Below are positions 9,471 through 30,871 of a stretch of 64,000 bases of DNA, in pieces. The position numbers and the translations under genes were made by a program. The notes beneath the pieces were generated by a model. It was given only the letters and a program-made list of their open reading frames with translations. It was not told the origin of the DNA and did not search any database. The DNA is from Thuidium tamariscinum (taxonomy: Eukaryota; Streptophyta; Bryopsida; Hypnales; Thuidiaceae): assembly GCA_947034885.2 (NCBI GenBank), contig OX344753.2:23204347-23268346 (forward strand), written 5' to 3'. The stretch's first letter is position 1; each line of letters opens with the position of its first letter.

Positions 9471-9809
9471 TTAACACTGCCCATAATGAAGAAGGTGTGA
9501 CTAGCCTTCATAAATGATCCTTTTCAAATTGTCTAGCCCACTCTGGGCCCTGGCTGTCCAATTGCACTGGAGAAAAGTAAACACATTTGTTTAAAAATAA
9601 GTAAACAAATAAATAAACGCATAGAGAATGCCAACTCGTGTCAGCTAGAGGTGACTTCCGTGGAATATGTGCAGGTGTCTGGGATCATCATCTCAAGTTT
9701 TCCAGTTAAAGCCTCCACAAAATAGTGAAATTAAGATGCCTGTCATTAATATCTCATCATTTTTAACATTAAAAAAATATTTTCTATTCCTATGTACTTA
9801 TTTTGGAAT

Positions 9810-9846
9810 CAACGTCGCTAGTACGTGAGCGGTGAGCGGGGAGCAG
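9810..9846 (+). repeat. left terminal inverted repeat of the 15.84-kb MULE
   Basis: Reads ...GCTAGTACGTGAGCGGTGAG and continues with further GAGCGGGGAGCA steps to about 9868. It matches the inverse of 25615-25651 without gaps. The direct repeat ATTTTGGAAT abuts it at 9800-9809. Confidence 0.85.
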
Positions 9847-9897
9847 CAAGTTGTGAGCGGGGAGCATTGATTTGGGATGAAAAAAAATAAAGTTGCA

Positions 9898-10020
9898 TGA
9901 AAATGGATGAAAGTGGATGGAAAAAATGGATGAAAGTAGATGAAAGTAGATGAAAAATAGATGAAAGTAGATGGAAAAAATGGATGAAGTTGGATGCAAA
10001 AATAGAAGACAATGGACGAA
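9898..10020 (+). repeat. subterminal TGGATGAAA repeat cluster
   Basis: About ten degenerate copies of (A)AAGTRGATGAAA / AAATGGATGAAA just inside the left end. A comparable AAAAGTGGATGA array sits at the same relative place in the second element (26309-26425). Clustered subterminal motifs are usual for transposase binding sites, but the function here is inferred. Open frames on the minus strand here are repeat translations. Confidence 0.75.
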
Positions 10021-10496
10021 AATAACAGATGAAAAAGGTAAAAATCAAAATATATACCATTCAAAATTGTAACTTCACTACTACAGTGCCTATGACCGTG
10101 GAAGTAAATTGTCTTAAAACCAAAGAAGTTGAGAGTTGAATTGAATTGCTTTTTGTGTCATATAATAAATCTCAAATAGACCCATTACCGTGGACATTTT
10201 TAGAATTGATGATTGTGTATTTTGTTTCAAAAAGAAATGAGAGAATTTGAATTATAAACTAAAAAATTAAAATCAAAACACAATGGTTAGAAGAGAATGA
10301 AGGTACAAATACATGATATCAATGATGGAATATAATAAACCATAATGCAAAATATAGGTATAAGGAAAACAAAAAAAATTATACAGTAATCTCAATGCTG
10401 AAAGTGAAATGGAAGTAGTGGCCCTTTTAGTCTCACTACATATACATTGATGAGTACAGAAGGTACAAAAGTTGATACTGTTTTGCAATAAAAAAT

Positions 10497-13400
10497 CTAA
10501 CTTAGAGCTAAATGATTTAATATCCCACTAAGAAGGATCTTCTTGACTTCATTGAAACTGAAACTTGGGGCATGAATGAAGGCATCTATTGCTGACTCAA
10601 GGTTGCAAATGATTGTAAAAACAAAATAGAGATGCTTACAATTTGCCCATTAGCCTCGCTTGCCTAATGACTTTGTAGCCATTTCTTTGAAGTATGGACA
10701 TGAACACTCTGGAAATGATGAAATAGTAAGCATATATTGTTCAATTTTTGGCTCCAATCCAGAGTCAAGGCAAACAATGCAACCAAATCCAGGGTGAGGA
10801 ACCATTGTTACCCGACGAATGCATGCCTTCAGTGTAATTGCAGATGCACAATTGTTCGCGTGTTTTACTGTTGGTGCCTTTGGATTCCGACGAATGGTTT
10901 TCCCTGACCGAATTTTTGGATGCTCATCTGGTATACATGGAACAGGATAAGCAGAGACCAAATCTAAACCTGCTTCTCCACCAAACAGTCTTCGGGGTGA
11001 AATAACTTGACGTTGTGGAAGCTGAAAGCCAGCAGTTTCAAATGCCAAAATCTCTTGCTTTGACAAATTGGTACCTATTTTGACAGGCCATATGGCAGGG
11101 ACATTAGGTCTTGACAACACCCATTTCCGACTTGTACCCTTCACACAACGTTCAATGTCGTCATTGCAAAAGAAAAATTGCATTTGTTCATTTCGATTTT
11201 TCTTATAATTGGTCATCATTCCTGTATACGTTGGTGCTGCTGTAGCAATATTGCTTTGGACAATCCTTGCTGTACACTTCTTCTTCGAAATAGCTTGGAG
11301 GGCAAAGCAAGCCTTTGCTGAGGATTTAAGAAGCCTTGCAATGTGCCACTGAAACTCATCACAGTTGCTCTCTTGAATTGCTGACACATGAGGAACTCTG
11401 TAAGCAAAACCTTCTCTTAAATTGCCCTCAGTTGTCATCGGATCCTCCATCTCAGTATCTGCAGTTGGAATAACATCTTCAATAATAGGATTCAAATTTT
11501 GAGTGCCTATAGAGGCTCTCTTCGACCTCATTTGAATGCGTGGATGAGAAAAATTCACTTTGTCCAGGCGGTGTGAATCATATTCACAGCCCAATGGCAT
11601 ATCTGGCTTGCGTTTTTGTGATCCAAACACTTCTTCACCTTCAAGACGAGGCTCCCTATTGAGAAATTCTTTCACTTCTGGAATGTTGGACATAGCTTCA
11701 GTGAGCACCTTTGGATTCCCCGATCGTTGCACTGATCATTGGGCAACTCGGAGTAACAATTCTTCCTTTCCAGGTCCTGTTCCAGCTTGATCGCCTTTAA
11801 GATATTGATAATACTTGACCATTTGCATAAAGGCTCTTACATAGTCGTCAACAGTGGCAATGTATAAATCGTTTCCTCGATTTCCAGATTGTTGAAGCCA
11901 CTTGTTATGGACAGTTTCGGCTAAATTGCAAGAAGGCATTTCCGCGAGCTCAGATTCACTCAGATTCTGAAATGACAATGAAATCAAAAATGAAAATTTT
12001 GTTAGAAAAAGATATAAATGTATTGTAAGTATAACATTATTACTATTAATATTGATAGTATAACTAGTAATCAAAATAAGAAGGAAATTATAATATGAAT
12101 CAAGAAAAGACAATAAACTTTTTATCATCAAGGACAAAGAAAACAGACCTCCTTTTTAGTTCATGTCATTTTTTTATCAAAAAACTAGGAAAGGAGGTTA
12201 AGCTGTGCCATTGTCGTTGATGAAGTGGCAAGACATGCTAAATTATGTCTACTTTCAGTGTTACAAAAATAAAATGATTGAAGATTCAAATCTCATGATC
12301 TTTGTTGATAAGGATTATTGGTCTCTAATTTAATATAATTTTTTTGATTAATAATGCAATAAATAATAACCCATACTGTCTTTGATGATCTATTTATAGT
12401 AATTATAAGAATTGTAGTGAAATCATGTATACTATACATACATTTTCAAATTGACATTGTCCAAATGATTAGTAATGGTTATAAAATTAAATTTTGAATT
12501 TTTTGCTATAAATAGATTTAAACAAATAGATATTTGAAATAGAATAGATGAAGAATAGATACTTACAAGTTGTTCAAATCCTCCCCATTGGTGGTAACGG
12601 AAATGCCAGAACGATAGCCAAAGTTCCAATCGATGAAGTCCTTCTGTCGTAGCACCAGATGATAACCACTAAGCTTTGATGGCAAGATATCGAGTTTCTG
12701 ATTCTTCAGAGGAAATAGCATTCTTGTATTGTTTGCATAGCAAATGATGCTGATCTTGTAAGTCTGATTGAATATCAGCTTTTGTATGCTTTTCCATTGA
12801 TTGAGTTCAATGGAAAAGACAAGTCCTTTCTTGGTTTTCCATTGGAACATGAATGTCACTTGATCCATAGATTGTCCTCACAGCATTCCAATTTGCTTGG
12901 GCACTATCAGCCATAAATCCCTTGAATTTAAGGTGAGATACACCATGTCTTGCAAGAACCGAATTCAAGTTTTTCCAAAATACAATTTGAGCAGCACAGT
13001 CTTCAGATTGCATATCACAGACAGCAATAGTCATAACACGACAATACATGGAGTCGTAGACATGACATGCCATGGTAGTCCAACCTTTAACACGTTTAAC
13101 ATGATCAAACATTAACCAAGCATCCTGAAGGTCACCGTCGGGTTGCATTCGCTTGACCAAGTCTACTCCACTACTGGGTCCAACTTCCGACATTTTGAAG
13201 ATAAAAACTTTATCCATATCCGATCCTTGACCTGTAAATTTATTCTCTTGAACAAATGCCCCAGAGCTTGTACCCCTCAATTTTGTAATGCTATCCATAA
13301 CTCCAAACCTCCTTAAGTATTTGAATGAAGTTACCTCATTTCGAATATTTGGAGAGCTGAAATATTTGCACTTGTCAAGAACTGGAAGAAGTTCATCAAT

Positions 13401-14828
13401 GTTGAGGGTCTTCACTGGAACTCCATCTGGACGTAGCAATAATTCTCCCACAAGTTCTTTTGTAGCCTCTAACACAATTGAAGAGTTTGTCGCAACTGGT
13501 GTTCTCTCCATTTGTTCACCAATAAGAATATGGGTTCGCTCCTTGATGTCTCTGAGTTCACCATCTTTGACAAGATGTTGATGAATGCCAAGATGTACAA
13601 ATGCACAAGAGGATTTCTGTTTTTCAAACACATAATATACCCTTGCAGAACATCGAGCAATACAGGATGGAGGTTGCTTGCATATTTTACAAACAAGTGT
13701 TGATCCTTGAGGATGTGCACTTCCTACTTCAAATAGTGATGGTGTGAACCCTTCCCATTCTAGTTCATTGACAGGCTTGGTTCGATGAATACGACTAAGA
13801 AACTCACAACCCGGATTGATGCACTGAAGATGTCCTACACATGAAGATGTACGGAATGATAATCCCATGATGTTTGTTATATTTGTTGTAATAGTTTTAG
13901 ACCAGACATGCCCATCATACCGCTTATCCATCCCACTCATTTGCTTAGCTTGAGATAGAGCAGTGGAGGTAGTAAATGGTGGAAACTCAAAAATGACATC
14001 TCCATTGAAAGTTGGAGGTAATACGCTCACTCTATGAATAGTAATAGTGTCATAATCAATTTTTTTCAAGACATTTCTACATCCCTTCAATGTACGCAAT
14101 TCTCTTAAACAATCAATGACAGATGTAATAGATTCGTTGCTACTAGAGGGATTGGCAAATAATGGCTCATAAGAACTCGACAAAGCACTAGAGCTGGGCA
14201 AAGTACTTGAGCTGGGTAAAGTACTTGAGCTGGGTAAAGTACTTGAACTGGGTAAAGTACTTGAGCTGGGTAAAGTACTCGAGCTGGGCAAAGTACTAGA
14301 ATTGGGCAAAATACTAGAGCTTGGCAATGTACTAGAACTGGGCAAAGTACTAGAACTTGGTAAAGTTGACTCATGACATCGAATCTTAGAGCTTTGCAGT
14401 TGCTTAGGAGAATTGTCATCAGAATCATCACTTAGAATGGTGACATCATTCAAACCAGGCTCTAATTTAACTCGTGTTGTTAAAGGTGTTTCACGAGAGG
14501 ACGTAGAGGACTGACGAGGTGTAAAAACACTCGTAGAAGTTACCATAATGGATTCACGCAATCCATACACCCTAAATTGACCAGGCTTCAAATGCCACAA
14601 TCTACCAGCACCATCTGAAACAGGGACTTGATCAATTGTGTGAGTAAGGTCTCCACTTTGATCATCGAACACCTCTTCATCAATATAAAGTGAGTCCTCG
14701 TTCAACTGAAACCTAAGACTTAATCGAAACGCAGAAACCATAGCAAATCCATCTTTGCCTATTAGAAACGTTATTGGAATCCCTTCACCATTTGCCCTTA
14801 TAATAGCCATCTCTGTAAAGTCTACCAT
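10497..14828 (-). pseudogene. Mutator-like transposase (pseudogene, element 1)
   Basis: Two exons: 14828-12567 and 11966-10497, joined in phase through a GT-AG intron (donor GTAAGT, acceptor TTTCAG), giving about 1,243 codons. Parts in order: an N-terminal region; a Ser/Pro-rich minisatellite tract; a Cys/His cluster ending in HLGIHQHL that may be a WRKY/GCM-like zinc finger; a MULE core with Asp in WLMFDHVKR, Asp in FMADSAQANWNAVR and the CxxH motif CLFH; and, in exon 2, a SWIM zinc finger (CSC...NCKH). It would cut and rejoin transposon ends in the nucleus. Four in-frame stops break it: 12807-12809 (TGA where element 2 has Trp), 12669-12671 (TAG for Trp), 11736-11738 (TGA for Arg) and 10650-10652 (TAA). 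No frameshift is needed, so decay is recent. The start ATG is the first in the frame and aligns with the element-2 homologue. Confidence 0.85.
14176..14366 (-). repeat. 18-bp minisatellite inside the transposase
   Basis: About eleven copies of an 18-bp unit (plus strand GAGCTGGGTAAAGTACTT) encode in-frame repeats of STLPSS. The period is a multiple of three, so copy changes keep the frame. Element 2 lacks the expansion, so it arose in this lineage. Confidence 0.9.
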
Positions 14829-16040
14829 TGCTTAAAGATTGAAGTCTCATGAAGATACCATTCTAATTTACGTCCATACTGCACTCAGAAGAAATGAATT
14901 GAAAAGAAAGAGATTGTGCTGAAAACAAATATGTAGTTAGCAATTATGATGATGAAGTAGTTTACAACGGCTTTAGCAATAGTTAGGAAATCGTTTGAAA
15001 ATTTCTCAATGATGAATTCTGACAAGAGTTCAAGAAGTGACATTAATCTTGATCCCTTAAAAGAACCTCATTAGAAAAGAGAAGCAAACTAAAAACACCT
15101 AATGGTGACATACTGACATAGTAGACAATAAAATATAGTACCAAATTTATTAATAATAGTATAAACTTGAATAAATTAATTAGATTAATAAAAATCTAAT
15201 TATGAAAATAAACATGTCTCATGTTAATTAATTTAATAATGATTATGAATTATGAATTAAAAAATAAATGAAATATAGTATATGTTAAGATGTTGGTTTG
15301 AAGTGGTCAACATAGTTAGATTAGTGATGATCCGATTTTGAAAATAAACATGTCTAACATTAATTAATTTAATAATAAATATGAATTATGAATTAAAAAA
15401 TAAATGAAATATAGTATATGTGAAGATTTTAGTTTGAAGTGGCCTACATTAGAAGTGGCCCACATTAGAAGTAGCCGTCATTTGTATGAAACATGAACAA
15501 AGAATCAAAGGAAATACAAACATTTAAGTAGTGGGAGCGCCAAATCCACCTGCAGGTTTACGTTATAGTAGAAGATTGATAGAGTATTTTTACAAGAAAT
15601 AACATTTAGAATAACAGATCCGTCAGATTTCAAAATTTGAATAAACTTCAGACTTGTACAATTGTCATTTACCGTTGCCAGAGAGTTTAAGTTTTTCTTG
15701 TTAGTACATCTTGCTTACCATCTTTATTAAAGTTGTAGGACATCATTGTAATACTTCTTTGGTCTTGAAAGCGTTTTGAGTTTGTGTTACAGTAGCTATG
15801 CATCCAGTAGGTGATTTTTACTCTTGTTGTGAAAGAAGATTGTAGATTTGTGAGAGATGAGAATAATGCACCTTTGTCAATTTTTGAAGGCTTTGAATAG
15901 CTAAAAACATTATTTAAATTAAACTCAATGTTTGTTAGAACTATGTCTACAGCTAGTAGGGTTGAATGATAGATAATTTGGAGGTGATAGAGACGGTATT
16001 ATTGTGATGCTTGTTTCGGAATGTATGTGTGGTAGATCAG
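14829..16040. other. divergent intergenic region of the MULE
   Basis: Lies between the leftward transposase start and the rightward genes, so it should hold promoters for both. I see no sharply defined TATA box. A 136-bp tandem duplication at about 15204-15475 (each unit starting GAAAATAAACATGTCT) is the only clear structure. Confidence 0.55.
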
Positions 16041-16415
16041 ATGCTTGAAGAAATCAAGATCCTTAAGTCTCAGGTTGCAAGTAGGTTGATAAAAAAAAAG
16101 AGAAAAAGACGCAAACTATATTACACAACTCCGAAGGCCAGATCAAGAGCTAAGATGAGAGGGGCCAAAATTTTAAGTAGAGGAAAGCATAGCTATGGTG
16201 AGACCTCTAAAGCACTTGATTTTGGTGACCAAGAAGTGGCCGACATAGTTGATGACGGTATTTCATGTCTTGATAAGATTATTGAAGAACCAGTATCTAT
16301 GGTTGAAAGAGATGAGGACAACATACATGGCGAAGAAGACGATCAGAGTAAGGACAAGAGCGAGGACGAGAGTGACGAAGATAGCGAAGAACCTGCCCAA
16401 AGTAGAGAAGATTTG
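16041..16415 (+). CDS. possible exon, basic-then-acidic protein
   Basis: An open reading frame of 125 codons from ATG 16041 to a good splice donor (TTG|GTAAGT). The N-terminal half is basic, with a nuclear-localisation-like KKKRKRRK; the C-terminal half is very acidic and serine-rich (SEDESDEDSEE). It ends in phase 0. It could therefore splice onto either 17134 (preceded by TTGCTGCAG) or 17985, which would make it the true first exon of the ParB-methyltransferase gene. Alternatively it is a separate small gene of the element. I do not recognise a family. Confidence 0.4.
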
Positions 16416-16976
16416 GTAAGTATATCATATTATTTGATCATTTGAAGTTGATGTTTTAAATAAGATGTAGTGAGAATTTGTTTAGAAGAACACTTGTTAA
16501 GTACTTATTTACTAGTTCATTACATAACAAAGCCAAAAGATGCTTGAAAGTATAGAAGAATAGATACCAAAATGATTAGGTTGTTTGTTGAATTAGTATG
16601 AATTTTTTTTTGGTAGAGCTGCATTTGACAGGGAAGACCTTCTCGTGTATTTTAAGAAGACAATTCCAACGGTATATGGCACATAAAAATTGGATGGTTA
16701 TTGAATGTTTTATGGCATAAAAACGATTTCAGCAGATTGGAACCTGGTCTGAAATCTTCAGAATCGGAAGATTTTTAGGCAAATCTTGCCCGCGGACTTT
16801 TTTGTGAATTTTGACGATTTTTGTAAAATCAGTAGTGAGTCTAAAAATTCTGAAAAAATTTGGAGTGAACTGTAAGGTTATAATCTACATATGAAAAAAA
16901 TTTCAAACCAAATTACTCAAAATTACATTTGCTATTCAAAATAAAGCGCTGACCTAAATCTACCAATTTTGTACTC

Positions 16977-17001
16977 TTTTTTTTTTTTTTTTTTTTTTTT
17001 T
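16977..17001 (+). repeat. poly(T) tract
   Basis: Run of more than 20 T upstream of the first well-supported exon of the ParB-methyltransferase gene. It may act as a T-rich promoter or splice element, or be the poly(A) scar of an antisense insertion. Confidence 0.7.
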
Positions 17002-17090
17002 CCCCTTCCCCGAGGCCAACATTGCAAACCAGTCCAATCGTGCGTCGAAGTTGCTGAGGGTTTGGCGCAGAGGAAGATCACTCGTTGACG

Positions 17091-17638
17091 AGGCATCTTC
17101 TTTGCTTACGATTTGTGGCGATTGTTGCTGCAGATGGAAGAGGGAGAATTTGCAGAGCGGTCGGCAGTGGCTTCGCGTGGACCGCAAGAAGACACTCAGC
17201 CAGACATTGAAGTTTGTTTTCTCCTCTAATTTTTTCTCTGTCATTTCTAGTTCGAAGTTTTGTGCATTTTCGGGGGGGGCAGCAATTGCGGGACGTGCAG
17301 TTTTGAGGAGTCCTCGTTGACGAGGATACCCAAAACGGCGGCTACCCTAATCAACATTGGTTTGTTTACAGCCCTTTTGGGAAATCTTCGTTGACAAAAA
17401 AACCTAAAATTATACATTCTTTGTTTAGATCGTTAGGTTGAATTACACACGACTATTTCGAGGAGTCCTCGTTGACGAGGACACTCAAAACAACTTCGAA
17501 TCTAATTGAAAAATGCTAAGATTGTTGGGCTGTTCTTAACAAAAAAATTTTGAAGGACAATATTTGCACATTCTTTGGATCAATGCCAATGTTTTGGTTT
17601 GAACTATACTCAACTCATATAGTCCTCGTTGACGAGGC
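17091..17638 (+). promoter_or_regulatory. array of CCTCGT-TG-ACGAGG palindromes
   Basis: The 16-mer TCCTCGTTGACGAGGA occurs at 17311-17326 and 17466-17481, with one terminal base changed at 17623-17638, and as a 12-bp core (CTCGTTGACGAG) at 17091-17102. A decayed version is at 17385. Seven-base arms flank a TG spacer. The last three are 155-157 bp apart inside a badly diverged tandem repeat, yet the palindromes are nearly unchanged. They span the 5' untranslated region and first intron of a gene encoding a ParB-like domain. A binding site for that protein or for the transposase is my inference. Confidence 0.6.
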
Positions 17639-20600
17639 TGTCCATAACTTGTATTACTTTAGGCTGAATTTTGAGAAGAGATGTCATTTCATGATTTCTT
17701 TGTAGCTTCTCTAGTTTTCTAATAGAATGAGTTTTTAGCTGATTTTAGCTGATTTTAGCCGTTTACTTCAATTCAAACGAAATTGGATATGCATTATGGA
17801 AATTTTTTAGAGCTTTGAGATTATTTAGGAATTCAGTTGTCAATGTTGTTGTATTTGTGTTGTCTTATTTGTATACTACGATGCTGTAAACAAGAATCAA
17901 GAATGAGTTCATTTTCCTTTCATCTTCATTTATAAATAATGGAGGACTTATGTCAAGTTTTCTTCAATGATTTCAACTAATCAGATGAATGAAGAAGAAG
18001 AAACTGAAATCACATATGTCGAGGAGGAAGAAGGTGAGAACAACAATGATGGTGAGAGAGTTGTTACAAGAGAAACGGGAAGAGTTGCACTTCCAATTGT
18101 TGAGGTAAATGAAATTTCTACATGTTCTCAACTTCATGTCCTTTCCATTACTTTGTGTATGTACAATTATTCAAAACAACAAGTTTTAAATGTAAATCAC
18201 TCTCTTCTCTAATGCCATTTTATCTATCATTTTTTTGAAGGTTGCATCTATTGATCTTGAAGATGATGAACCAAGATGTGAATGTCCAGCTGATGTAACA
18301 AGTGTATTGGAGAGTGAGCAACTCCACCGCAAACAGCTTAAAGTGGACACTACAGGACTCATCAATACATTGCGTATCCAACCAGTTTCTAGATCACGCC
18401 TTGAGATACCTCTTTGTCAAATGATTGTTATGGACGAGGTTCGACCGGTTGGTGAAATGGATGTTCAGAGATTGGAGAGTGAGTTTATGACTGGCTATCG
18501 AGATGGTGATCGGGTTCTATATATATCACCATACAACAATTTCGAAAAAACTATGGACGTGACTGAAGAAGAAATTGCAAGGTGGAGTCCTCATTGGCAA
18601 CATGTGAATGAGGAGTTTGAGAAAGAGTTGATGGCTGATGATGACCTTGCCCAATTGAGAGGCAAGATGTTTTATGTATGGGATGGAAATCATCGTGTCT
18701 CGGCATGGATGCGACACATCACCAACTATCATCCTACAGAACTTGATTGGCATTGGCGAGTTCATTGCATTATATTGGATCCAAGAGGTCAAGTGGCAAA
18801 CTTGCTAAATGCAATGAGTGATATTAACTGGTATGTTTCTTATTCTATTTAAATTTATTTGTGAAGAATCTAAATATGAATTCATTGCCATGAAATTTGA
18901 TTTCATTCTCATGCAAATGCATTGTATAATGTGTAGGTCTACTGAGCATGATCATGTGAAGAGTACAATTCCAGCTCGATTGCGGCGAATTCGAAATTTT
19001 GGAGTTTTACCTCTTGCTGATTTCAAGGACCTTATATCTCCTGAAGAGTACCAATACTGTGAGAAGGTGAAGGCAATGAGACCGAGTTGATTTTCTTTGA
19101 CAGTCAATGTCTTCATCTCCTTTTTGTATAAGGTGCAATCACATTTTCAATTTGTTTTTCTTGCAACATTTATATGTCATTTCTGTAATTTCTTTGACAT
19201 TCTTTTGATATTGTAATATCTTTGACAATCCTTTAGCATTGTAATTTCTGTGATTTTTTTGACATTGTAATTTCTGAAATTTCTTTTGACATTATAAGTT
19301 TCAGTTTGTGGTTTCTGAAATTTCTGTAGTTCCCTTGATAGTGTGATTTCTGAAATTTCTGTAGTTCCTTTGATAGTGTGATTTCTGAAATTTCTGTAGT
19401 TCCCTTGATAGTGTGATTTCTGAAATTTCTGTAGTTCCTTTGATAGTGTGATTTCTGAGATTTCTGTAGTTCCATTGATAGTGTGATTTCTGAATTTTTT
19501 GTAGTTCCCTTGATAGTGTGATTTCTGAATTTTTTGTAGTTCCCTTGATAGTGTGATTTCTGAATTTTTTGTAGTTCCCTTGATAGTGTGATTTCTGAAA
19601 TTTTTGTAGTTCTCTTGATAGTGTGGTTTCTGAAATTTTTGTAGTTCCCTTGATAGTGTGATTTTTGAAATTTTTGTAGTTCCCTTGACAATGTGATTCC
19701 TAAGATTTTTGTAGTTCCTTTGATAGTGTGATTTCTGAAATTTTTGTAGTTCCTTTGATAGTGTGATTCCTAAGATTTCTGTAGTTCCTTTGATAGTGTG
19801 ATTTCTGAAATTTTTGTAGTTTTCTTGACAATGTGATTTCTGAAATTGTTGTAGTTCCGTTGATAGTGTGATTTCTGAAATTTTTGTAGTTCCTTTGGCA
19901 TTGTAAGTTTTAGTTTATAGAAAGTCTATTCTATAATAAATTTTGAAGTCCTCTATTTATATGATTTCTTTGACATTGTGATTTCTGAAATCTTTTGTAA
20001 TTCTTGTGACATTGTAATTTCTGTAGTGGCTTTGACATTGTAATTTCTGAAATTTTTGTTATTCTATGAACATTGTCAATTCTATGATTTCTTTCACATT
20101 GTAATTCCTGAATTTCCTTTGACATAGTAATTTTTGTAATTTTCAATTGTAGCGGGAGATTGCATTGGCCGCCGATGAAGCAGCTCGAGAGTACACGATG
20201 CGGACACCACTCCAAGAGAGGACTGCTCCAGGCATTTGGGAAGCAATGAAAAATGCCTCAGACAAGTTTGTCAAAGCTGTTCATGCCAAAGACTTTGACA
20301 AATACCTAGCGGTGGCAAATCCAAAGAACGGAAATGATTTTCTCAAAGAGGTATGAGTTCATTTGTATTCCATTTAAACTTGTAATCTCTGAATTTATCT
20401 ATACATTGCATCATTTCAATCTAATATAAATGTTTTTATGTGCTCAGATTGATAGACACTTCAGTGAATATCCAAATCTTGAAATGACGATTGAAAAACT
20501 TCAAAAAATTGCCACCGCTAACATTGAAGCAAAACACAAGGCACGGTGGTTAAGGTGGTGGAATGCATCCTTGACGGTTCGACAATCTTATCGCTTTCCA

Positions 20601-23600
20601 GGATCCAAGGATAAAGACCTCTTTTGGGATTCTTGGATCAATAAAGCATCTTTTTGGGCTGAGGTATTGTATTGTGACCGCAAATCATTTCTTTCTTGCA
20701 CTTATTATGATTTCATTTTATTGTATTTTTAACATTCTTCATTTCATTTTAATAGATGGAGGAGGCGGTTGTTAAGATGGTTACAAACATTTGCAAAGAT
20801 GAAAACATTGTCGTAGATTGGACCATACAAGGTGTTCGAAAGCCCTCTGATTATATGGAGAGTTGGCGCATTTTGCTTTGGGACAAAGCATTTATCTCGT
20901 TCTTTGGAAACAAAGATCAGAAACTCTATACAAAGAAGTCTGTATTTAAAGAGTTCCCTGGAGCTGAGAGTGCAGTGAGACGTATTGTATACAGGTACTA
21001 TCATGCTATTGCACTTATCTACTTGCTTTAATATTTATTATGTAGTTTCTATTGTTTCTTATTTTTGGTTCCTATTTGTTACCTTTACTTCTAAAAGTTG
21101 ATGAAAATGCTTTGTTTGTTCTTATTGTTTTCATTCATGAATTACTTGCCAATCATGACATTTGTCTCCTTGACTTCAGGTACTTCATGCGGGTTCTACT
21201 TCCCAAAAATGCAATTTCAGCAGAAGCTGTACCACCCTTTTTCCTTTCTTGGTTGCAAAAAGACTCTGATCTTTGTATGTTTACATTTGAGCAATTGAAG
21301 AAGTTCAAAGCTACACATTTGGAAGCGGGAGGGTGGTACCTTGATTGTCATCGGAATTACACCCCTAACTCAGAGGTTGCAGAGAGGACAGCTTTTGATG
21401 GTGGACAACTTGCTATTCTTGACCCTGACGATGCAGAAGAAGTCAATCAACCACAAGAGAAGGCACCAAAGAAAAAGCGGCTCACAAAGAAGGAGAAGGA
21501 AGAGATGGAGAGGGTGGCCAAAGAGAAGGCGAAGAAAGAGAAGGCAGAGAAAGAAGAAGCCGAAAGACAGAAGTCTCAAGCAAATGAGCTTGTAGCCGCG
21601 CCTTCACAGAGTCATGAGACTACCCCCATGTCAGACCAAGGCCATGATGATGGCCTTACACCTGCTGCTCCAGATTCTTCTTTATCGAATGTTGTTCATG
21701 CCACTGGTAATCGAATTCGAAAGAAGAAACGATTCATGTTCCCTTCAGCCAGCTCTTCAATGATAGAGCCTAAAGACTCTCTTCATGTCTTTGTAGAGTG
21801 CACTTCTCTCATCACTGTCTTGAATAGTTTACAAGAGTCCACTGGCCCTAATCCTCGATGGATAAGGTTGCATGACACTATAGCTAAGGTATTGTATTCT
21901 CAACTTAATTCCAACATTTCATCTTTTATGGCATTGCTTTGAAGGTTTTAATTCTAACTTTACATGTATGAAATGTGCAGATTAGTGCTACTCGCAATCG
22001 TACTGTCACATCCGACTTTTGCAAAGAATACAAGCATACAGGACTTGATTTGATCATTGCAGACATTCCAGAGAATCTACCTGTTCCAGGTCTTTCAACT
22101 TCAATTCCAGAGTGGAACGCGCGCAAAGAAAATTATGTTGAGACTTTCTTTGAGATGGCTGATATATATTTGCATGATGATGGTGCCCTCCTACTCATAC
22201 ATTGTGATGACCGAAGATTGCTAAAAGAAGTTGATGAGTTGGCCGACCAGTATGACATGAAGTTGGCCAAAGATTGGTGGGGAATCAATGAGCTACATCT
22301 TGCATCTGCACGGGATCCATCATTAACGGTAAATGAAAAAGTTTATGTGACTTCTTTGACATTGTGATTTCTGAAATTTTCTGTAATTCCCTTGACATTG
22401 AAATTCATGTGATTTCTGAAATTTTTGTAATTCCCTTGACATTGTAATTTCTATTATTTCTTTGACATTGTGATTTCTAAAATTTCCTTTGACATTGTAC
22501 ATTTTAGTTTGTAGGAATTTATAGAAAGTCTACTCTATCCTTAACTTTGAAGTCCTTCATTTTGGTGATTTCTTTGACATTGTGATTTCTGAAATTTTTG
22601 TAATTTCCTTAACATTGTAATATCTGCAATTTCCTTGACATTGTAATTTCTGAAATTTTCTTTGACATTGTAAGTTTTAATTTGTGAGTAGTTTGTAGGA
22701 AGTTGTAGAAAGTCTATCCAAAAATAAACTTTGAAGTCCTTCGTTTTGGTGATTTATTTGACATTGTGATTTGTGAAATTTTTGTAATTTCCTTAACATT
22801 GTAATATCTGCAATTTCCTTGACATTGTAGTTTCTGAAATTTTCTTTGACATTGTAAGTTTTAGTTTGTGAGTAGTTTGTAGGAAGTTGTAGAAAGTCTA
22901 TCCAAAAATAAACTTTAAAGTCCTTCGTTTTGGTGATTTATTTGACATTGTGATTTGTGAAATTTTTGTAATTTCCTTAACATTGTAATATCTGCAATTT
23001 CCTTGACATTGTAGTTTCTGAAATTTTCTTTGACATTGTAAGTTTTAATTTGTGAGTAGTTTGTAGGAAGTTGTAGAAAGTCTATCCAAAAATAAACTTT
23101 AAAGTCCTTCGTTTTGGTGATTTATTTGACATTGTGATTTGTGAAATTTTTGTAATTTCCTTAACATTGTAATATCTGCAATTTCCTTGACATTGTAGTT
23201 TCTGAAATTTTCTTTGACATTGTAAGTTTTAGTTTGTGAGTAGTTTGTAGGAAGTTGTAGAAAGTCTATCCTAAAATAGACTTTGAAGTCCTTTGTTTTG
23301 ATGATTTATTTGACATTGTGATTTGTGAAATTTTTGTAATTTCCTTAACATTGTAATAACTGCAATTTCCTTGACATTGTAATTTCTGAAATTTTCTTTG
23401 ACATTGTAAGTTTTAGTTTGTGAGTAGTTTGTAGAAAGTTATAGAAAGTCTATCCTAAAATAGACTTACAAAGTCCTTTGTTTTAATGATTTATTTGACA
23501 TTGTGATTTCTGAAATTTTTGTAGTTCCCTTGACATAGTGATTTCTGAAATTTCTGTAGCTCTCTTGATATTGTAATTTCTGAGATACAGTTCTTTCTAA

Positions 23601-24404
23601 TATTCAACTTTTCAATGTTTGCAGTCTGTTCGATTTTGGATTCAATTGTTTATTCGGCGGGAGATTCCTTCACGGTTTTTATTCCAAGAAAACCGTGATT
23701 CTTCTTATGATGGTGAGCCTTTAGAGAAAAATGATGCTCTCTTCAATCTTACGGATATTGAAAGCCTTTCTATGAATGAGAAAATTCCATGGAGAGGTCC
23801 ACGTGAGAAGAACTTACCCTTTATGCGAGATCTCATCCTACAATTTTGCAAGCCTGGAGATATTGTCCTTGATTGCAAAGCTGCAACAGGTATTTTTTTT
23901 CTTCTACAATTTTAAGTTCTATTCATCATTCTTTGGAGCTGATTTTTCATAATTTATTCATATATTTTTTGTTTTCCAATAGGTTCATCCATCAAGGCTT
24001 GTTTGGAGACTGGACGGCACATCTTAGCATTAGAAGATGATCCTCTCATTTTCAAGGCTATAATTGCCCCGTTTGCCCCTGTTGCAGCCTCTATTTCTAC
24101 AACCAAGGATAGAGCCACTACCCCACTGCTTGATCAGCCACCTACAAAGAAGCCAAAGAGGAATCGATTCATCTCTTGTGCGTAAGTTGTGATTCATTTG
24201 TTAAGTCACCATTTTTCATTTTATAAGAATATTTGAATTACATTGTATTTTACTAATCTTTTTTTCTTGTCTTGCAGAGACACCGTAGTAGAGCAAGTAC
24301 AAGATGCAAATGAGCAGAGTCCGCCTTTCAATTTCATTCTCTCGGTTTATGCAGAGAGGATTGCTCAAGCATATGTTGATGCTCCATCTCCAATAGTGAA
24401 TTGA
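17134..24404 (+). CDS. ParB-like / DNA methyltransferase-like fusion protein
   Basis: Twelve exons with GT-AG introns and consistent phase: 17134-17211, 17985-18104, 18241-18830, 18937-19066, 20153-20350, 20448-20663, 20756-20994, 21180-21888, 21981-22328, 23625-23889, 23983-24181, 24278-24404. They give 1,072 aa with no stop or frameshift. An acidic N-terminus leads to a ParB/sulfiredoxin-fold domain (about 120-245; VWDGNHRVSAWM, with DGNHR at 214-218). A helical middle and a Lys/Glu-rich segment (615-655) follow. Then comes a permuted, beta-class methyltransferase-like domain: motif IV region DLIIADIPENLP (DIPE at 788-791), motif I region PGDIVLDCKAATGSS (953-967), ending in a basic KKPKR near 1019. 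Canonical DPPY and DPFxGSGT are altered, so activity is doubtful. Prokaryotic proteins of this make-up modify adenine or cytosine in DNA; here I infer a nuclear DNA-binding or modification role. It lies divergent to a MULE transposase within one element. The start could also be 16041. Confidence 0.82.
19335..19905 (+). repeat. 34-bp minisatellite in intron 4 of the methyltransferase gene
   Basis: About 17 tandem copies of a 34-35-bp unit, typically TTGATAGTGTGATTTCTGAA followed by ATTTYTGTAGTTCC, within intron 19067-20152. Flanking bases to 20140 hold looser copies with TTGACATTGTAATTTCTG. A 152-codon open frame on the minus strand is only a translation of this repeat. Confidence 0.92.
22340..23590 (+). 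repeat. 184-bp satellite-like array in intron 9
   Basis: Intron 22329-23624 is almost entirely tandem repeat. A higher-order unit recurs every 184 bp: the CCTTCRTTTTGGTG landmark falls near 22555, 22738, 22922, 23106, 23290 and 23474. Each unit is built from 34-bp-like subunits (TTGACATTGTAATTTCTGAA) related to the intron-4 minisatellite, plus a unique segment with GTAGGAAGTTGTAGAAAGTC. Confidence 0.92.
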
Positions 24405-24989
24405 CAAAAGCTTCGATATGATCCAAAGGTAAAGGAGTTCTTGGATATAGAGGCAGATCAAAGAGAGGAATTTGAGATTGAAGGTTCAACCTCTAGTGAC
24501 TGTAGCTCTAGTGGTGGTCTTTGAGTGGTTTTCATTTTTCAGTGTATTTCACTATTGTGGCTCTAAATTGCCCTCCAGTTTTATGGCATTTGCTTTATCA
24601 TATATATATTATACAGGCATTTGATTGTGTGTTCTAAATGTTGAATGCTATATCCAAGTGACCCACATATTTAAACTTATTGTATCTTCTTATCTTGGTG
24701 AGTATTCAATTTCTCATTGTGTGAATTTAAACAACAAAAGATTTGTTTCTAAATGATTCACAATTGCTTATAACTTTAATGGTTGCAATATTATGCCATA
24801 ACTATATATGTCTTTTTTTGAGTGGTATTGTAGTATTATAGTTTTTCATTCAATTTCTTTAAGCTACTTGGTCTTTCCATTATAAGTATTAGATGTTTTT
24901 TTGCTCCGTAGGAGACTATTTCAGGGTTCTTCCCTAAAACTGTTCACTGTGCAATGAACCAGCGACTGCTGGTCTGAATTTTTTGAAGG

Positions 24990-25021
<32 letters not shown>

Positions 25022-25159
25022 GAAAGTTATGAAACAAAAAACTGATTTTTTTAAATTAATAATTAATTAAAAATATAGTAAAATCTAGCATGATAATCTC
25101 TCAACAATGTTAGCCTTCTAAATGCCCCCAAAAACATCTAATGTCTTAAATGACAAAAA
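24405..25159. other. 3' flank of the methyltransferase gene, partial MITE and poly(A)
   Basis: Bases 24405-24890 are the likely 3' untranslated and flanking region. Near 24905-25090 is a partial copy of the MITE at 61984-62327 (shared GGTCTGAATTTTT and a TTTCAGGG block), containing an A-run of about 30 bases at 24990-25018. No gene. Confidence 0.5.
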
Positions 25160-25555
25160 TCCATGGTCATAGATTTCCTTCTATTTTTATTAAAACTAGA
25201 AACCATCATTTTATTAGGTATCCAAATTTCCTTAACAATCCACGGCTTTACATGCCCGTTTTAATACAAATTAAATTTTTATGAAAATTATACGGTAATA
25301 GGGTCTCTTAAATTTCATAAATTAAACTTTAATAAATCATTTTTGGTTCTCTTATCTCTATTCTTTGCTCTTGTAGAGAACTTTAAATGTTTGAAATTAC
25401 ATGATCATAATGCTTATATCATATAGCTATAGATCTAAGCTTCCAAAATTCCATGGCTTTAGATTAGAATTGGATTGAAAAAAATTCAAATTTAATATTT
25501 TTGGAACAAACTAATTACACGGTTTTAGGTACCCTTTTCCACGGTAATAGGATTA
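25160..25555 (+). repeat. subterminal TCCACGGTAATAGG motifs
   Basis: Six degenerate copies near 25160, 25239, 25290, 25450, 25517 and 25539. The inverse occurs in the left arm near 10094 (GACCGTGGAAG) and 10188 (TTACCGTGGAC). Their placement next to the terminal repeats suggests transposase-binding sites; that is inference. Confidence 0.55.
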
Positions 25556-25614
25556 GGTAGGTCTTTTTTCCTAAAATCCCTGCTCCATGCTCACTTTTTC
25601 CTGCTCCTTGCTCC

Positions 25615-25651
25615 CTGCTCGCCGCTCCCTGCTCACATACTAGCATTCCTC
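25615..25651 (-). repeat. right terminal inverted repeat of the 15.84-kb MULE
   Basis: Read on the minus strand it begins GAGGAATGCTAGTATGTGAG. GCTCCCTGCTC-type steps continue inward to about 25580. The direct repeat ATTTTGGAAT follows at 25652-25661. The first seven bases closely match the left end of the second element at 26188. Confidence 0.85.
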
Positions 25652-25783
25652 ATTTTGGAATTAGGTGTTGTTGTAATTGGAGACTCTTAAATGTCTATAG
25701 ATACAAATGGAAGTATCTCTAGAAATGATTTGTTGACATTATGATAGGCTAATTATCTTTCTAGTGAATTCAAGAATAAGAGA

Positions 25784-25984
25784 TCATACGTATACGGGCG
25801 GACCATGATGGACGATGCTACGTTGCTCAAGAGTAGAATTGACTTCATGAGCGATCAAAGCATCCACAACATCTGAATAAATTCTTTTCATCCAATCCAA
25901 TCTTGTAGGATCACTAAGAGTGTTCATTGCAATCCAAGCACCATAAGGGCGCAAGGGTCTAGTCAGGGTAGGGAAGTAATGCAA
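25784..25984 (-). CDS. coding-like fragment, unknown
   Basis: Open frame of 66 codons between the two MULEs, with protein-like composition (for example PYGAWIAMNTLSDPTRLDWM). It may be one exon of a host gene, with a possible donor near GTATACG, or an older element's remnant. I do not recognise it. Only about 0.5 kb of non-MULE sequence remains here, so any larger gene has been interrupted. Confidence 0.3.
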   Translation of the reverse strand: MHYFPTLTRPLRPYGAWIAMNTLSDPTRLDWMKRIYSDVVDALIAHEVNSTLEQRSIVHHGPPVYV

Positions 25985-26187: not shown

Positions 26188-26308
26188 GGGGAATGCTACA
26201 AAGGGAGCGGGGAGCGATGAGCAGTCAACGGGGACGAAGAATAATGAAAGAGAACTTGAAAAAATAGTTAGAATTTGTAAGAAAATTGCGAAGAAGAAGA
26301 AGAAAAAG

Positions 26309-26425
26309 TGGATGAATTTTTTAAGAAGTTAGATGAAATGACACAAAAGTGGATGACAAAAGTGGATGATAAAAGTGGATGATAAAAGTGGATGACAAAA
26401 GTGGATGACAAAAGTGGATGATTGA
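26309..26425 (+). repeat. subterminal AAAAGTGGATGA array
   Basis: Six or more near-identical units of AAAAGTGGATGAY in tandem, just inside the left end of the second element. It corresponds in position and motif to 9898-10020 in the first element. Confidence 0.85.
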
Positions 26426-26874
26426 ATGTACAATTCAGTGAATAGTGTGGATGAATATATTGCTGAAGACATCAAAAAATTGGGTGAAAGTTGAATGGCA
26501 AAGAGATTAAAGAGCAAGATGAAATGAGCAATTGGGTTCATAAGCAAACAACTCTTAAATTGAATTCATTGTCAATATGAAACCTTGTTTATATTTATTC
26601 TTTCTTTATGATTTCAAGTAGCAAAGCTAAGCACTACAATTTAATTATTTCAAGTATTTTAGGGTTTAGTTCAAGAAAAGACAAAAAGGTAAGGTTTAGG
26701 GTACATGTCATACCTTTTATATTACCAAACTGAAATGTTTTTTCGGAGTACAATGTATACATGTGTTGCACATGTATCCAAAGGACTTCTCCAAGTTTAG
26801 GGTCGAAAAATCTTTATTGAAGTCGAAACTGAACAACAACCTAATTTCACTTCAATTTCAGAACCCTACTTTCC

Positions 26875-29800
26875 TCACAAATAATTGAGGGTGCCACTCA
26901 AGAATATTTCCTTCACTTCATTGAAGCTTAGAGTGGCACAATGCAAGAAGACATCTACTGTAGGCTGTAGGTTGCAAATAACAGTGAAAACAAAATACAA
27001 GTGCTTACAATTCACCCATGTTCCACGTTTACCCAAGCACCTGAGCTTCATTTCCTTGAAATTTGGACAAGTGCAATCTGGAAATGACGAAATTGTCAAC
27101 AAGTACTTCTCTGCCTTTGGCTCCATACCAGACGCCAATGAAACAATGCACCCAAACCCTAGATGAGGAACTATGGTCACTTTATCAATTCGCACAATCA
27201 ATGTCAAAGCAGAAACACAATTGTTTTGGTGCTTTACTATAGGAAACTTCAAGTTTCGACGTACTACCTTCCCAGCACGAGCATTCGGGTGTTCATTCGC
27301 TGAAGAAGGAATAGGGTATGCTCGCAATATTTCTACACTCGTTGTTCCACCAAACAATCTCCGTGGTGAAATGAGTTGACGTTGTGGAAGTTGAAAACCC
27401 GCATTTTCAAGGGCTAAAATCTTAGACGTGGAAAGCTTCGTTCCCATTTTCACGGGCCAAACATCAGGAATTGTTGGTGGGATTGAAACCCATTTCCTTT
27501 GCATCCCCTTTACACATCGCTCAATGTTGTCATTGCAGGAAAAAAAACTGCATTTTATCACTAGTATTCTTCTTGTAATTCACCATCATACCTGTGTATG
27601 TTGGAGCTGCAGTGGCGACATTATTTTGAATTATCTGAGCAATGCAATAATGCATTTCTTCTTTGTAATAGCTTGGAGGGCAAAACATACTTTTGCTGAT
27701 GTTTTTGGTAAACAAGCTATGTACCATTTTGACTCATCACAAGCAGTCTCCTGAATTCTGGACACATGACTCGGACCAGCGGTAGTCCTTGCTCCCAAGT
27801 CGTCTTCGATTTCTATATGGTCTTCATCTTCGTCCTTCATTGTAAGCGGCACACCTTCTAATATTGAATTCAAAGAGTGGGCAATTGAATTGGCTCTCCT
27901 AGATCTAGTTTGAATATGCGGATGTGAGAAGTTCACCTTGTCAGGTCTATATGAATCGTGTTCGCAGCCTAGAGCCATGTCAGCTTTTCTTTTTTGCAAT
28001 CCAAAGACCTCTTCACCTTCAAGATGGGGCTCTCAATTGATGAATTCTTCTACATCTTAAATGTTGGAAATGGCTTTAGTTAGCGGTTTTGGATTCCTAG
28101 TTCGCTCCGTCGATCGTTGTGCAACTCTAAGCAACAACTCTTCCTTTCCCGGTCCCGTTCCGCCTTGGTTCCCCTTGAGGTATTGGTAATATCTTACCAT
28201 TTGAATAAAATCTCTAACAAAGTCGTCCACCGTAGCAACATACAGATCCCTGCCTCTATTTCCAGATTATTGTAGCCATTTATTGTGTACAATCTCAGCT
28301 AAATTGCAGGAAGGCATTTCTGCCCGCTCGTTTAATGAAAGATCTTGCAATGTCCAAAAACACATTGAGACACCAAATAAAAGAATCCGTCAAAGCGTTT
28401 CAAAAACATGTCAATGAGTTTTGACAGTAGCCCTCTAAAGCATAGGGTCATTTGACTTCTAGATAGAACCCATCCTAGGTAGGTGCAAACGCGGGAAGGG
28501 CTCGCTGGTGGACTATAAGGAATTGCATTTCAAAAACAAATTTCAATGCGTCTACCGGTAGCACAGAGTGCGATTGTCTGCATTCCCTCTCACCCTGGAG
28601 GGGGCTCTCAGTCCCGAGAGAGTGCGATCAGGGTAGAAGGTATGTAGAACATTTCGCAAATCCGAGGAAATAAAAATTCACTGCTTGGTAAGCAAAGTGG
28701 AAGATTACAAAAATGTCTCAAATGGCAATTTGTGATAAAGAGGGAAAGGAAACGATAACATATCAATTGTTGATATCCACCCCATTGCTTGTAGCGGAAA
28801 TGCCAAAAGGCCAGCCATAGCTTTAGCCGCCGTAGTCCAGGTTTTGACGTGGCACCTGATGACAGCCACCATGCTTTGATGGCAAGATATCGGGTTTTAG
28901 ACTCCTCAGGAGAAGTAACACTCTTATATTGCTTGCATAGTATTTGGTGTTGATCTTGTAGGTCGCCACGAATGTCGGCTTTCGTATGCTTCTCCATGGA
29001 TTGAGTCCAATGGAAGAGACAAGTCAACTCCTTGTCTTTCATTGGTTCTGAGCTCTCTCCTGATCCGTAGACGATTCTAACTGCATTCCAATTTGCTTGA
29101 GTATTGTCCGCCATGAAGCCCTTGAACTGCAAATCATAAACACCGTTCTTGTGAAGAACAAAATTTAAATTCCTCCAAAATAAAACTTGAGCCGCACAGT
29201 CTTCTGATTGCATATCACAGCACGCAACGGTCATTACATGGCAATAGGCGGAGTCATAGACATGGCAAGCTATGGTGGTCCAGCCTACAACACGCTTCAC
29301 ATGGTCGAACATGATCCAAGCGTCTTTGAGGTCATTGCCTAATTGCATACGCTTTACCAAGTCCACCCCACTACCCGGACCTAACTCAAACATCTTGAAT
29401 ACAAAAACCTTGCCCACATTAGTTCCCTGACTGGGAAACTTGCTCTCCTAATTCCTGAACGAATGCCCAAGTGCTAGCACCTCTTAATTTTGTTATCCTA
29501 TTGATGACTCTAAATCTCCTGAGATATTTGAATGATGCTACCTCATTCCGGATACTGGGAGAGCTCGAATATTTGCACTTATCTAGTAGGGGAATAAGTT
29601 TAGCGAACTCGAGCGTCTTTGCCTGTTCGCCTTCTGACTGCAGAAGCAGGCCGCCAAGTAGATCCTTTGTAGCCTCCAAAACAATAGATGAATGCGTGGC
29701 GGAGGGAGTTTGCTCCAGTTGCTTTGAAATTAGCAATCAAGTTTTCTCTTGCATGTTGCGCAGTTCACCATCTTTCACTAGGTGTTCGTGCTTGCCAAGA

Positions 29801-30871
29801 TGAACAAACGCTTGGGACATCTTATCTCCACCAAAGACGTAATACACTCGAACATTGCAGCGCGCAATACAACTAGAAGGTTCCTTGCAGACCTTGCAGA
29901 CAAGTGTCAACCCGGCTAGATGTTTTTCCCCAATTGCAAGAGGAGAAGGTGACACGCCTTCCCATTCCATCTCATTCACGCTTTGCAATCGGTAAACACG
30001 GCCAAGGAATTTGCAGCTACCGTTTGTGCAACGAAGATGACCAACGCAGACTGATGTTTGAAACAACAAGCTCATGCGGTTCACAATATTTGTTGTAGTG
30101 GCTTTAGTCCACACATGTCTGTCATGTCGCATATCCATTCCATACATTTGCTTCAATTGGGATGAACCCTCCAAGGTCTCCACAGAAGGCAATTCAAAAA
30201 TAACATCACCATTGAAATTGGACGGCAAAACCGGAAGCCTAAGAATGATGATTAGATTATAATCAATTCTAGATAGTACGTTCCTACAGCCTTTCAAGAA
30301 ACTCAAACCTCTCAAATTATCAATCATAGAAGCAGCGTACCCAATCCCTTGGAGGGAATCTCCCATCACCAATGTTGGCAAAATTTTCTCAGTTGGAAGG
30401 GTAGACACAGAAGAACTGAAGAAGGGATTGGTACTGTAGATGGCAGGGTAGGTGACTTGCCTTCCAAATCGGAGCTCAAAACAGTGAGTTCAATGGACCC
30501 CGATTCTTGCTTCAGGCGCAGCAAAGGAGGTGTTTGGAAGGAGGAGGAGGAAGACCTATTCAAAGAGGAAGCATTTTTGGACCCGCACTCTACAGAATCG
30601 TTTACCCCATAAGCTCTATACCTTTCAGGTTTCAAGGGCCAACAAATATTCTCCCTAAGGAGGACGGAAGGTGCCCTATGCTATGAGTAAGAATACCAGA
30701 GTCTTCAGCCACAAACTCCTCATCCACATGAATTAAGTCTGGTCTAAATTTAAACCTCAGACCTAGTCTAGTTACGGACACAAAAGCTAAACCATCTTCC
30801 CCGACAGGAAAATACACCGGCATGCCATCATCTACTGGCCTCACGACCACCATATCGGAGAAGTCGTCCAT
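26875..30871 (-). pseudogene. Mutator-like transposase (pseudogene, element 2)
   Basis: Homologous along its length to the transposase at 10497-14828. It shows the same start region (MDDFSDMVVV), Cys/His cluster ending HLGKHEHL, MULE core (WIMFDHVKR; FMADNTQANWNAVR; CLFH) and SWIM finger (CTC...NCKH). It keeps Trp and Arg at three sites where element 1 has stops, which helps to locate those stops. It has its own damage: several in-frame stops, frameshifts near 29420 and 30630, and both splice sites lost (donor GT changed to GA near 28767; acceptor AG missing near 28345). It is older or more decayed than element 1. The last codon before the stop is at 26878. Confidence 0.82.

Follow-up and report, generated by a model that had tools for sequence, protein, structure and literature searches.

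The stretch analysed here (the window) is 64 kb of contig C5 of the Thuidium tamariscinum genome (C5:23204347-23268346; the genome searched comprised 363 Mb in 19 contigs). Between positions 9810 and 25651 it holds a copy of a DNA transposon family that has at least 30 copies with a methyltransferase (MTase)-like gene. The element encodes a transposase-like gene on one strand and the 12-exon MTase-like gene on the other, and the two form one mobile unit. The features are listed in Table 1.

Table 1. Features of the transposon copy in the window (positions are those of the window)
Feature	Position	Strand	Basis or remark
Left target-site duplication, ATTTTGGAAT	9800-9809	.	Sequence reading and end comparison among copies
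Transposon, 15,842 bp	9810-25651	.	Alignments of other copies stop exactly at 9810 and 25651
Left end: CAACGTC tip, GCTAGTACGTGAGC, GAGCGG subterminal repeats	9810-9866	+	
Transposase-like gene, two main coding exons (~14829-12566, ~11970-10653), four or more in-frame stops in the window copy	10653-14829	-	Reading against other copies
18-bp repeat coding a Ser-rich stretch, N-terminal part of the transposase	14181-14366	-	
ORFa, basic/acidic open frame of 125 codons, ends at a GT donor	16041-16415	+	Lies between the two genes
12-exon gene model, MTase-like C-terminal domain, 1072 codons, introns all GT-AG	17134-24404	+	Pfam PF01555
Exons of the 12-exon model	17134-17211, 17985-18104, 18241-18830, 18937-19066, 20153-20350, 20448-20663, 20756-20994, 21180-21888, 21981-22328, 23625-23889, 23983-24181, 24278-24404	+	
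Exon 3, conserved N-terminal domain with DGNHR motif	18241-18830	+	"ParB-like" at motif level only
35-bp tandem array, 16.9 units, intron 4	19307-19897	.	
Exon 9, motif IV position LIIADIPENLPV	21981-22328	+	DIPE in place of DPPY
184-bp tandem array, 5.7 units, intron 9	22505-23554	.	TTTGACATTGTRATTTCTGAAATTT common to this array and intron 4
Exons 10-11, motif I GDIVLDCKAATGSS and motif II	23625-24181	+	
Right end: GAGC-rich repeats, GCTAGTATGTGAGC, GAGGAAT tip	25577-25651	-	
Right target-site duplication, ATTTTGGAAT	25652-25661	.	Sequence reading and end comparison among copies

A preliminary description of this DNA had noted a 10-bp repeat abutting inverted terminal repeats on both sides, and the coordinates bear this out, the ends being imperfect inverted copies: the outer 7 nt are unlike (CAACGTC and GAGGAAT), the next 14 nt (GCTAGTAYGTGAGC) are identical at 13/14 positions, and after these come subterminal repeats rich in GAGC. 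When the two 100-nt ends were aligned locally, the score was 31, versus a maximum of 23.5 among 500 shuffles. The 10-mer ATTTTGGAAT is over-represented in the genome (4715+4669 occurrences, versus 1171+1194 for the reversed control), so that the 10-bp repeat alone is weak and not decisive evidence. Insertion status is settled by other places in the genome, where the same two ends, with different 10-bp duplications, surround the same genes. Moreover, the joined flanks of the window insertion, used as query, gave 40 scored matches of 251 candidates: 37 were single alignments (71-80% identity) that crossed the junction, two were the flanks themselves and one was one-sided. Thus related sites align unbroken over the joined flanks and 9810-25651 is a single insertion, which landed inside a dispersed repeat (9680-9809 and 25662-25799; at least 37 related copies) of which related empty sites exist. 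That ATTTTGGAAT is part of a common dispersed repeat was also considered; this is true of the flanks and has no bearing on the insertion. As a separate observation, the 10-mer is ~4 times commoner than its reversed control, and several of its listed places are inverted pairs 101 bp apart (e.g., C1:132739 and C1:132840), which suggests a small dispersed inverted-repeat element.

Search of the genome with the MTase-like protein returned 105 matches, which fall into 30 loci including the window's own (43 of 2312 candidates were scored, so this is a lower bound; one locus is known from the DGNHR exon alone). The ends were searched separately with ~350 bases each: the right end gave 41 matches (40 places used, one row being the second piece of one place), and the left end 46, of which 35 were used and 11 short partial matches excluded. 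Each of the 30 scored MTase-gene loci is bracketed by a left and a right end, with order and orientation the same throughout, contrary to what would be seen if homologues of the gene were never near element ends. The end-to-end span was 15.1-19.9 kb at 29 loci and 42.8 kb at one, whose interior was not read. A copy on contig C1 aligns at 97-99% identity in two blocks, window positions 9810-17748 and 23798-25651, and the outer limits of the alignment fall exactly on 9810 and 25651. Target duplications in the 30 copies were as follows: 23 perfect 10 bp, two 9/10, two 8/10, one perfect 12 bp, one perfect 9 bp and one none. Among mismatched left-right pairings of ends (which include a 31st copy without scored gene match), 0/930 reached 9/10, the largest value being 8. 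Furthermore, a transposase match lay on the strand opposite to the MTase-like gene in 29/30 loci, while the remaining locus had none scored. Copies with both genes, matching ends and new target duplications are thus found in the same genome, and the proposal that the two genes travel together stands.

Since ATTTTGGAAT is common in the genome, a chance 10-bp repeat might in principle have bracketed two unrelated genes. This is scarcely credible, and is ruled out by the recurrence of the arrangement with new duplications (30/30 loci within ends, with the transposase on the opposite strand in 29), by the 0/930 mispairings and by the flank matches over the junction. Ends without a scored gene match were also found (ten right and five left), and the interior was read at six of these right ends. 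One 12-kb copy (C5:20221708-20233703), of which only the two ends were read, has both ends and a perfect 10-bp duplication and no scored MTase-gene match; it is perhaps a deletion derivative moved in trans.

The in-frame stops of the window's transposase were judged by comparison with other copies: in five of them the region carries long open frames in some and is broken too in others. The earlier assignment of the element to the Mutator-like elements (MULEs) stood in part. In its favour, the duplications fall within the 8-11 bp of the Mutator superfamily (PMC6446971), 23/30 being perfect 10-bp copies; terminal inverted repeats, though imperfect, are present; and an extra open reading frame is carried, as in several Mutator groups of the table in that survey. 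For the SWIM zinc finger the transposases of relatives gave weak matches (E 0.96 in the C1 copy, 0.034 in the window's second element and 0.013 in a second family, all below the Pfam cut-off). Conserved acidic residues were found among three aligned transposase sequences. On the other hand, the inverted ends are short with non-matching outer 7 nt, and the Pfam MULE domain (PF10551) gave no match to the transposase, the same model matching 33 other places in the genome, which served as control. As PF10551 was unmatched and the SWIM matches lay below cut-off, we use the label "MULE-like" and not MULE.

The model of the 12-exon gene in the preliminary description holds, 11/11 introns being GT-AG; the choice of its first exon is uncertain, and its terminal TGA may be early, since a further open stretch follows. 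The spliced protein matched Pfam N6_N4_Mtase (PF01555) at E 9.8e-7 (29.4 bits; curated cut-off 26.7) and phage DNA methyltransferase families of PHROG at a best E of 2.2e-8. A phage search with the MTase part returned 836 records, all below 60% identity, with a best E of 7e-5 among the matches listed. HMMER matches to individual MTases were weak (5hfj, E 0.018; CcrM, 0.33; RsrI, 0.85), and in NCBIfam only one model of an MTase was matched, at E 0.00057 and well short of its cut-off. A genome search for PF01555, taking one exon at a time, yielded no match at E 0.001, which is unsurprising where the coding sequence is divided among exons; the exons of the sister family scanned singly against PF01555 gave none either.

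DGxxR-type motifs are a feature of ParB/Srx domains, and the N-terminal DGNHR is invariant in three aligned sequences of two families. The ParB identity proposed for this domain found no support beyond the motif: no significant ParB/Srx match was found in Pfam or NCBIfam, the PHROG ParB-like match had E 0.12 (none in PHROG for the sister family), PDB searches gave no relative, and phage and viral-contig searches with it gave no useful result. As read from its sequence, the gene encodes a domain with the DGNHR motif fused to one that resembles beta-class amino-methyltransferases. ORFa, which may be a third gene or an alternative first exon, is present as a frame in 5/6 copies examined (shorter in one of those), and ORFa-like frames were found by eye in the second family (L113:1318-1731 and L114:7285-7728, at two loci described below).

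The catalytic motifs of the MTase-like domain are altered. HMMER aligns LIIADIPENLPV to AIITDPPYNISV of 5hfj, in a stretch without significant score of its own, which places DIPE on DPPY; likewise DIVLDCKAATGSS is aligned to DIVLDPFMGSGTT, placing DCKAATG on DPFMGSG, so that FxGxG reads KxAxG. The catalytic [DNS]PP[YFW] was found in 0/28 loci read, the window's own included, while motif IV was exactly DIPE in 23/28. Motif I is KAATG in the window, and the seven of the 28 loci that reach it read KAAT (six) or KATT (one), the last residue lying in the next exon. In the second family (L113), motif IV is FDYQENLPVP (DYQE) and motif I is GDIVVDCTASTGAS, ENLPVP being common to the window and L113; in a third family motif I is DCTASTG, such that DCxAxTG occurs in three families overall. 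The FxGxG of motif I, which binds S-adenosylmethionine (SAM), was not kept in the window, in the seven loci reaching it or in the two other families (TASTG).

An active amino-methyltransferase with an unusual motif IV, placing N6-methyladenine or N4-methylcytosine on the element's DNA (e.g., for silencing avoidance or end marking), is an improbable explanation. Several features would agree with it: i) the significant PF01555 match; ii) the first Asp of motif IV, which is mostly kept (the 23 DIPE loci, and DYQE in the second family); iii) acidic residues after the next strand in both families (ALEDD and ALEED). Yet in both families read, other residues stand in place of the second Pro and the aromatic position of [DNS]PP[YFW] and of the Phe and the first Gly of FxGxG, and in the related rotifer enzyme N4CMT a change of SPPY to APPA abolishes activity (PMC8885841). 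DIPE at motif IV, read beside the N4CMT result, argues against ordinary methylation, and the earlier idea that the element marks its own DNA is thereby made less likely.

The age of the association was read from older ends and related families. At six older right ends (82-91% identity), MTase exons lay beside 5/6, with only one exon at L110. A genome search with the transposase scored 95 places: 30 at 90% identity or above, 17 at 63-70% and 48 at 50-55%. Upstream DNA was read at L111 and L112 (63-70% class) and at L113 and L114 (50-55% class): L113 holds a diverged copy of the gene, and no copy of it was found within 9 kb at L111, L112 or L114. The L113 element, the only one of the second family with ends read, is ~16.7 kb long, with ends CAACGACGCTAGCGTGCGAGC and CAGGGTTGCTAGCGTGTGAGC and a 10-bp duplication (GAAGAGGGAA). 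The transposase of this family is ~52% identical to that of the window family, and GAGC-rich subterminal repeats are found at both ends of both families. Compared with the window gene by tblastn, the L113 gene was 33% identical over exons 3-4 and 43, 36, 29, 44, 42, 32 and 46% over matched parts of exons 5-11, with breaks between match blocks close to the same exon boundaries. The DGNHR exon, aligned globally, was 40% identical. When the L113 DGNHR exon was used as genome probe (150 of 627 candidates scored, at 60-100% identity), 23/48 transposases of the 50-55% class had a divergent DGNHR exon on their 5' side at a distance of 5.2-10.1 kb (chance, ~0.3% each), and 2/48 had one within 15 kb in another arrangement. 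The window also contains a second, older related element (26205-30489, minus strand), whose GAGCGGGGAGC repeat, at 26205, lies 0.5 kb beyond the right side of the first element; the open stretches of its transposase (26878-30489) are 63-69% identical to the first.

A homologous gene in a diverged family means that the gene is not a recent capture, which the MTase exons beside older ends also rule out. The gene may have been present in the common ancestor of the families or have moved between them, one transposase class (63-70%) having probably lost it; we infer an old accessory gene of the transposon. The view that the gene is cargo captured by one element therefore fails, the gene being a component of at least two diverged families. 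That it is passive cargo, taken from the host or by horizontal transfer, is very unlikely: MULEs do tend to acquire host gene fragments (PMC6446971), and no signal of selection was seen among young copies, but all 30 scored loci lie inside the element, and in the homologous gene of the diverged family the match is interrupted close to the same exon boundaries. A parent copy outside transposon ends was found at 0/30 scored loci (43 of 2312 candidates scored), so the suggestion of a domesticated gene finds no support here, and a domesticated single-copy gene is ruled out by the 30 dispersed loci. With regard to genomic distribution, contig C11 (17.5 Mb of 363 Mb, ~5%) holds 49 of the 150 scored DGNHR exons of second-family type and only 1/30 first-family loci; this contig may be a sex chromosome or a transposon refuge.

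Selection was tested on exons 5-9 of 28 copies, with expected values corrected for sequence context. Single changes comprised 185 non-synonymous, 71 synonymous and 22 stops (expected 183.6, 74.6 and 19.7; omega 1.06), and shared changes 75, 33 and 5 respectively (expected 74.7, 31.1 and 7.2; omega 0.95). For the transposase in six copies, single changes were neutral (omega 1.02), while shared changes, only 12 and 9 in number, gave omega 0.43. In the exons of the gene, 317/391 changes were C>T or G>A, as would be expected of methylated, silenced DNA.

The motif of the tandem arrays in introns 4 and 9 had 27 matches (up to three mismatches) in the 64-kb window, all within these two introns, with 0 expected. 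In the sister element a different array, GC-rich with a 21-bp unit, lies between the matches to exons 7 and 8.

At about even confidence, we read the window element as MULE-like and the product of its MTase-like gene as an accessory protein of the element that binds DNA and is probably non-catalytic; its role is perhaps anti-silencing or transposase-assisting. The product would bind the element's own DNA via the MTase-like fold (DNA, perhaps also SAM) and would not methylate it; it would aid multiplication of the element, either as a counter to host silencing or as a helper of the transposase, and the intron arrays would be its candidate binding sites. More tentatively, and in our judgement rather unlikely as a whole, the element may represent an unrecorded DNA-transposon lineage in which a bacterial-type MTase was turned into a non-catalytic, sequence-specific reader of the element's own intronic arrays: an independent counterpart of the VANC proteins of VANDAL elements, with array and reader co-evolving in each family.

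A factor for transposition (e.g., for end binding or complex assembly) without any role in silencing is a possible, if doubtful, alternative. Divergent two-gene layouts are known in other two-gene transposons, and here transposase and second gene are divergent in both families; such a factor could have its sites in the GAGC-rich subterminal repeats, which both families carry at each end. Against it, the 63-70% transposase class apparently lacks the gene, which would then not always be needed.

Several observations weigh against an accessory DNA-binding protein. First, in the libraries searched the DGNHR domain had no significant match to any DNA-binding family, and motif IV was read in two families only. 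Second, the gene is not found with every transposase: with the L113 exon as probe, a divergent DGNHR exon accompanied 0/17 transposases of the 63-70% class (1/17 in another arrangement), and 25/48 of the 50-55% class had none nearby among the 150 of 627 candidates scored; the second element of the window had no MTase-like gene near it in the remaining window sequence; and the 12-kb copy with its perfect 10-bp duplication has no scored MTase match. The 63-70% class and the 12-kb copy imply that not every member needs the gene in cis. Third, young gene copies fit neutral decay, with no evidence of selection on them, and the L113 gene, the only second-family gene read, has two in-frame stops in matched stretches; earlier selection is thus deduced only from the long open multi-exon frame and from conservation between families. 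Fourth, the arrays of the two families are unlike in sequence and in position, and the intron arrays could be ordinary minisatellites.

Elsewhere in the window, an open frame of 575 codons (56880-58604, plus strand) is of the glycosyltransferase family 2 / cellulose synthase-like type, and a 411-codon open frame in GC-rich DNA (51832-53064, minus strand) had no Pfam match at E 0.01.

In the open-access literature we found nothing that combines ParB with Mutator-like elements (subscription literature lay outside the search), only unrelated work on transposon, DNA methyltransferase, ParB and moss together, and nothing on Mutator-like gene capture in bryophytes. The word "methyltransferase" is absent from the main text of the Mutator survey (PMC6446971). 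Transposons with methyltransferases are already known, as are MULE-type anti-silencing genes: retrotransposons of dinoflagellates and of the charophyte Klebsormidium carry C5-cytosine methyltransferases, and DIRS elements carry Dam-like domains (PMC5890265). The window element resembles these in being a transposon that encodes a methyltransferase domain, and differs in being a DNA transposon with a beta-class amino-MTase-like domain. Like rotifer N4CMT and the 4mC methyltransferases of Marchantia (PMC8885841), its gene is of a bacterial, amino-MTase-like type and is found in a eukaryote; unlike them, it is transposon-borne and reads DIPE or DYQE, whereas those are host genes and N4CMT has an active SPPY. 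With the Helicobacter DpnA-like MTase (5hfj), CcrM and RsrI it shares a weak sequence match and the order in which motif IV precedes motif I, while its replaced catalytic residues, long extra domains and 12 exons set it apart.

Transposons with anti-silencing machinery, such as VANDAL elements with VANC, plainly illustrate the molecular arms race between element and host. The extra gene described here is large and old, occurs in many tens of copies across diverged families, and is MTase-like with altered catalytic motifs. If its product does bind the element's own repeats, it would offer a second, independent test of how transposons read themselves and escape silencing, and as many copies are young with exact duplications, the question is directly testable. 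The nearest functional analogue would be VANC of the Arabidopsis VANDAL elements, which binds fast-changing tandem repeats in noncoding parts of these elements (PMC10398659). Tandem repeats in noncoding parts are also present in the window element, and both systems combine a MULE-type element, an extra gene and such repeats (PMC10398659, PMC13317346). An MTase-like domain is present here, while none is mentioned for VANC in the cited text; the likeness is one of layout, and for the arrays it is suggestive.

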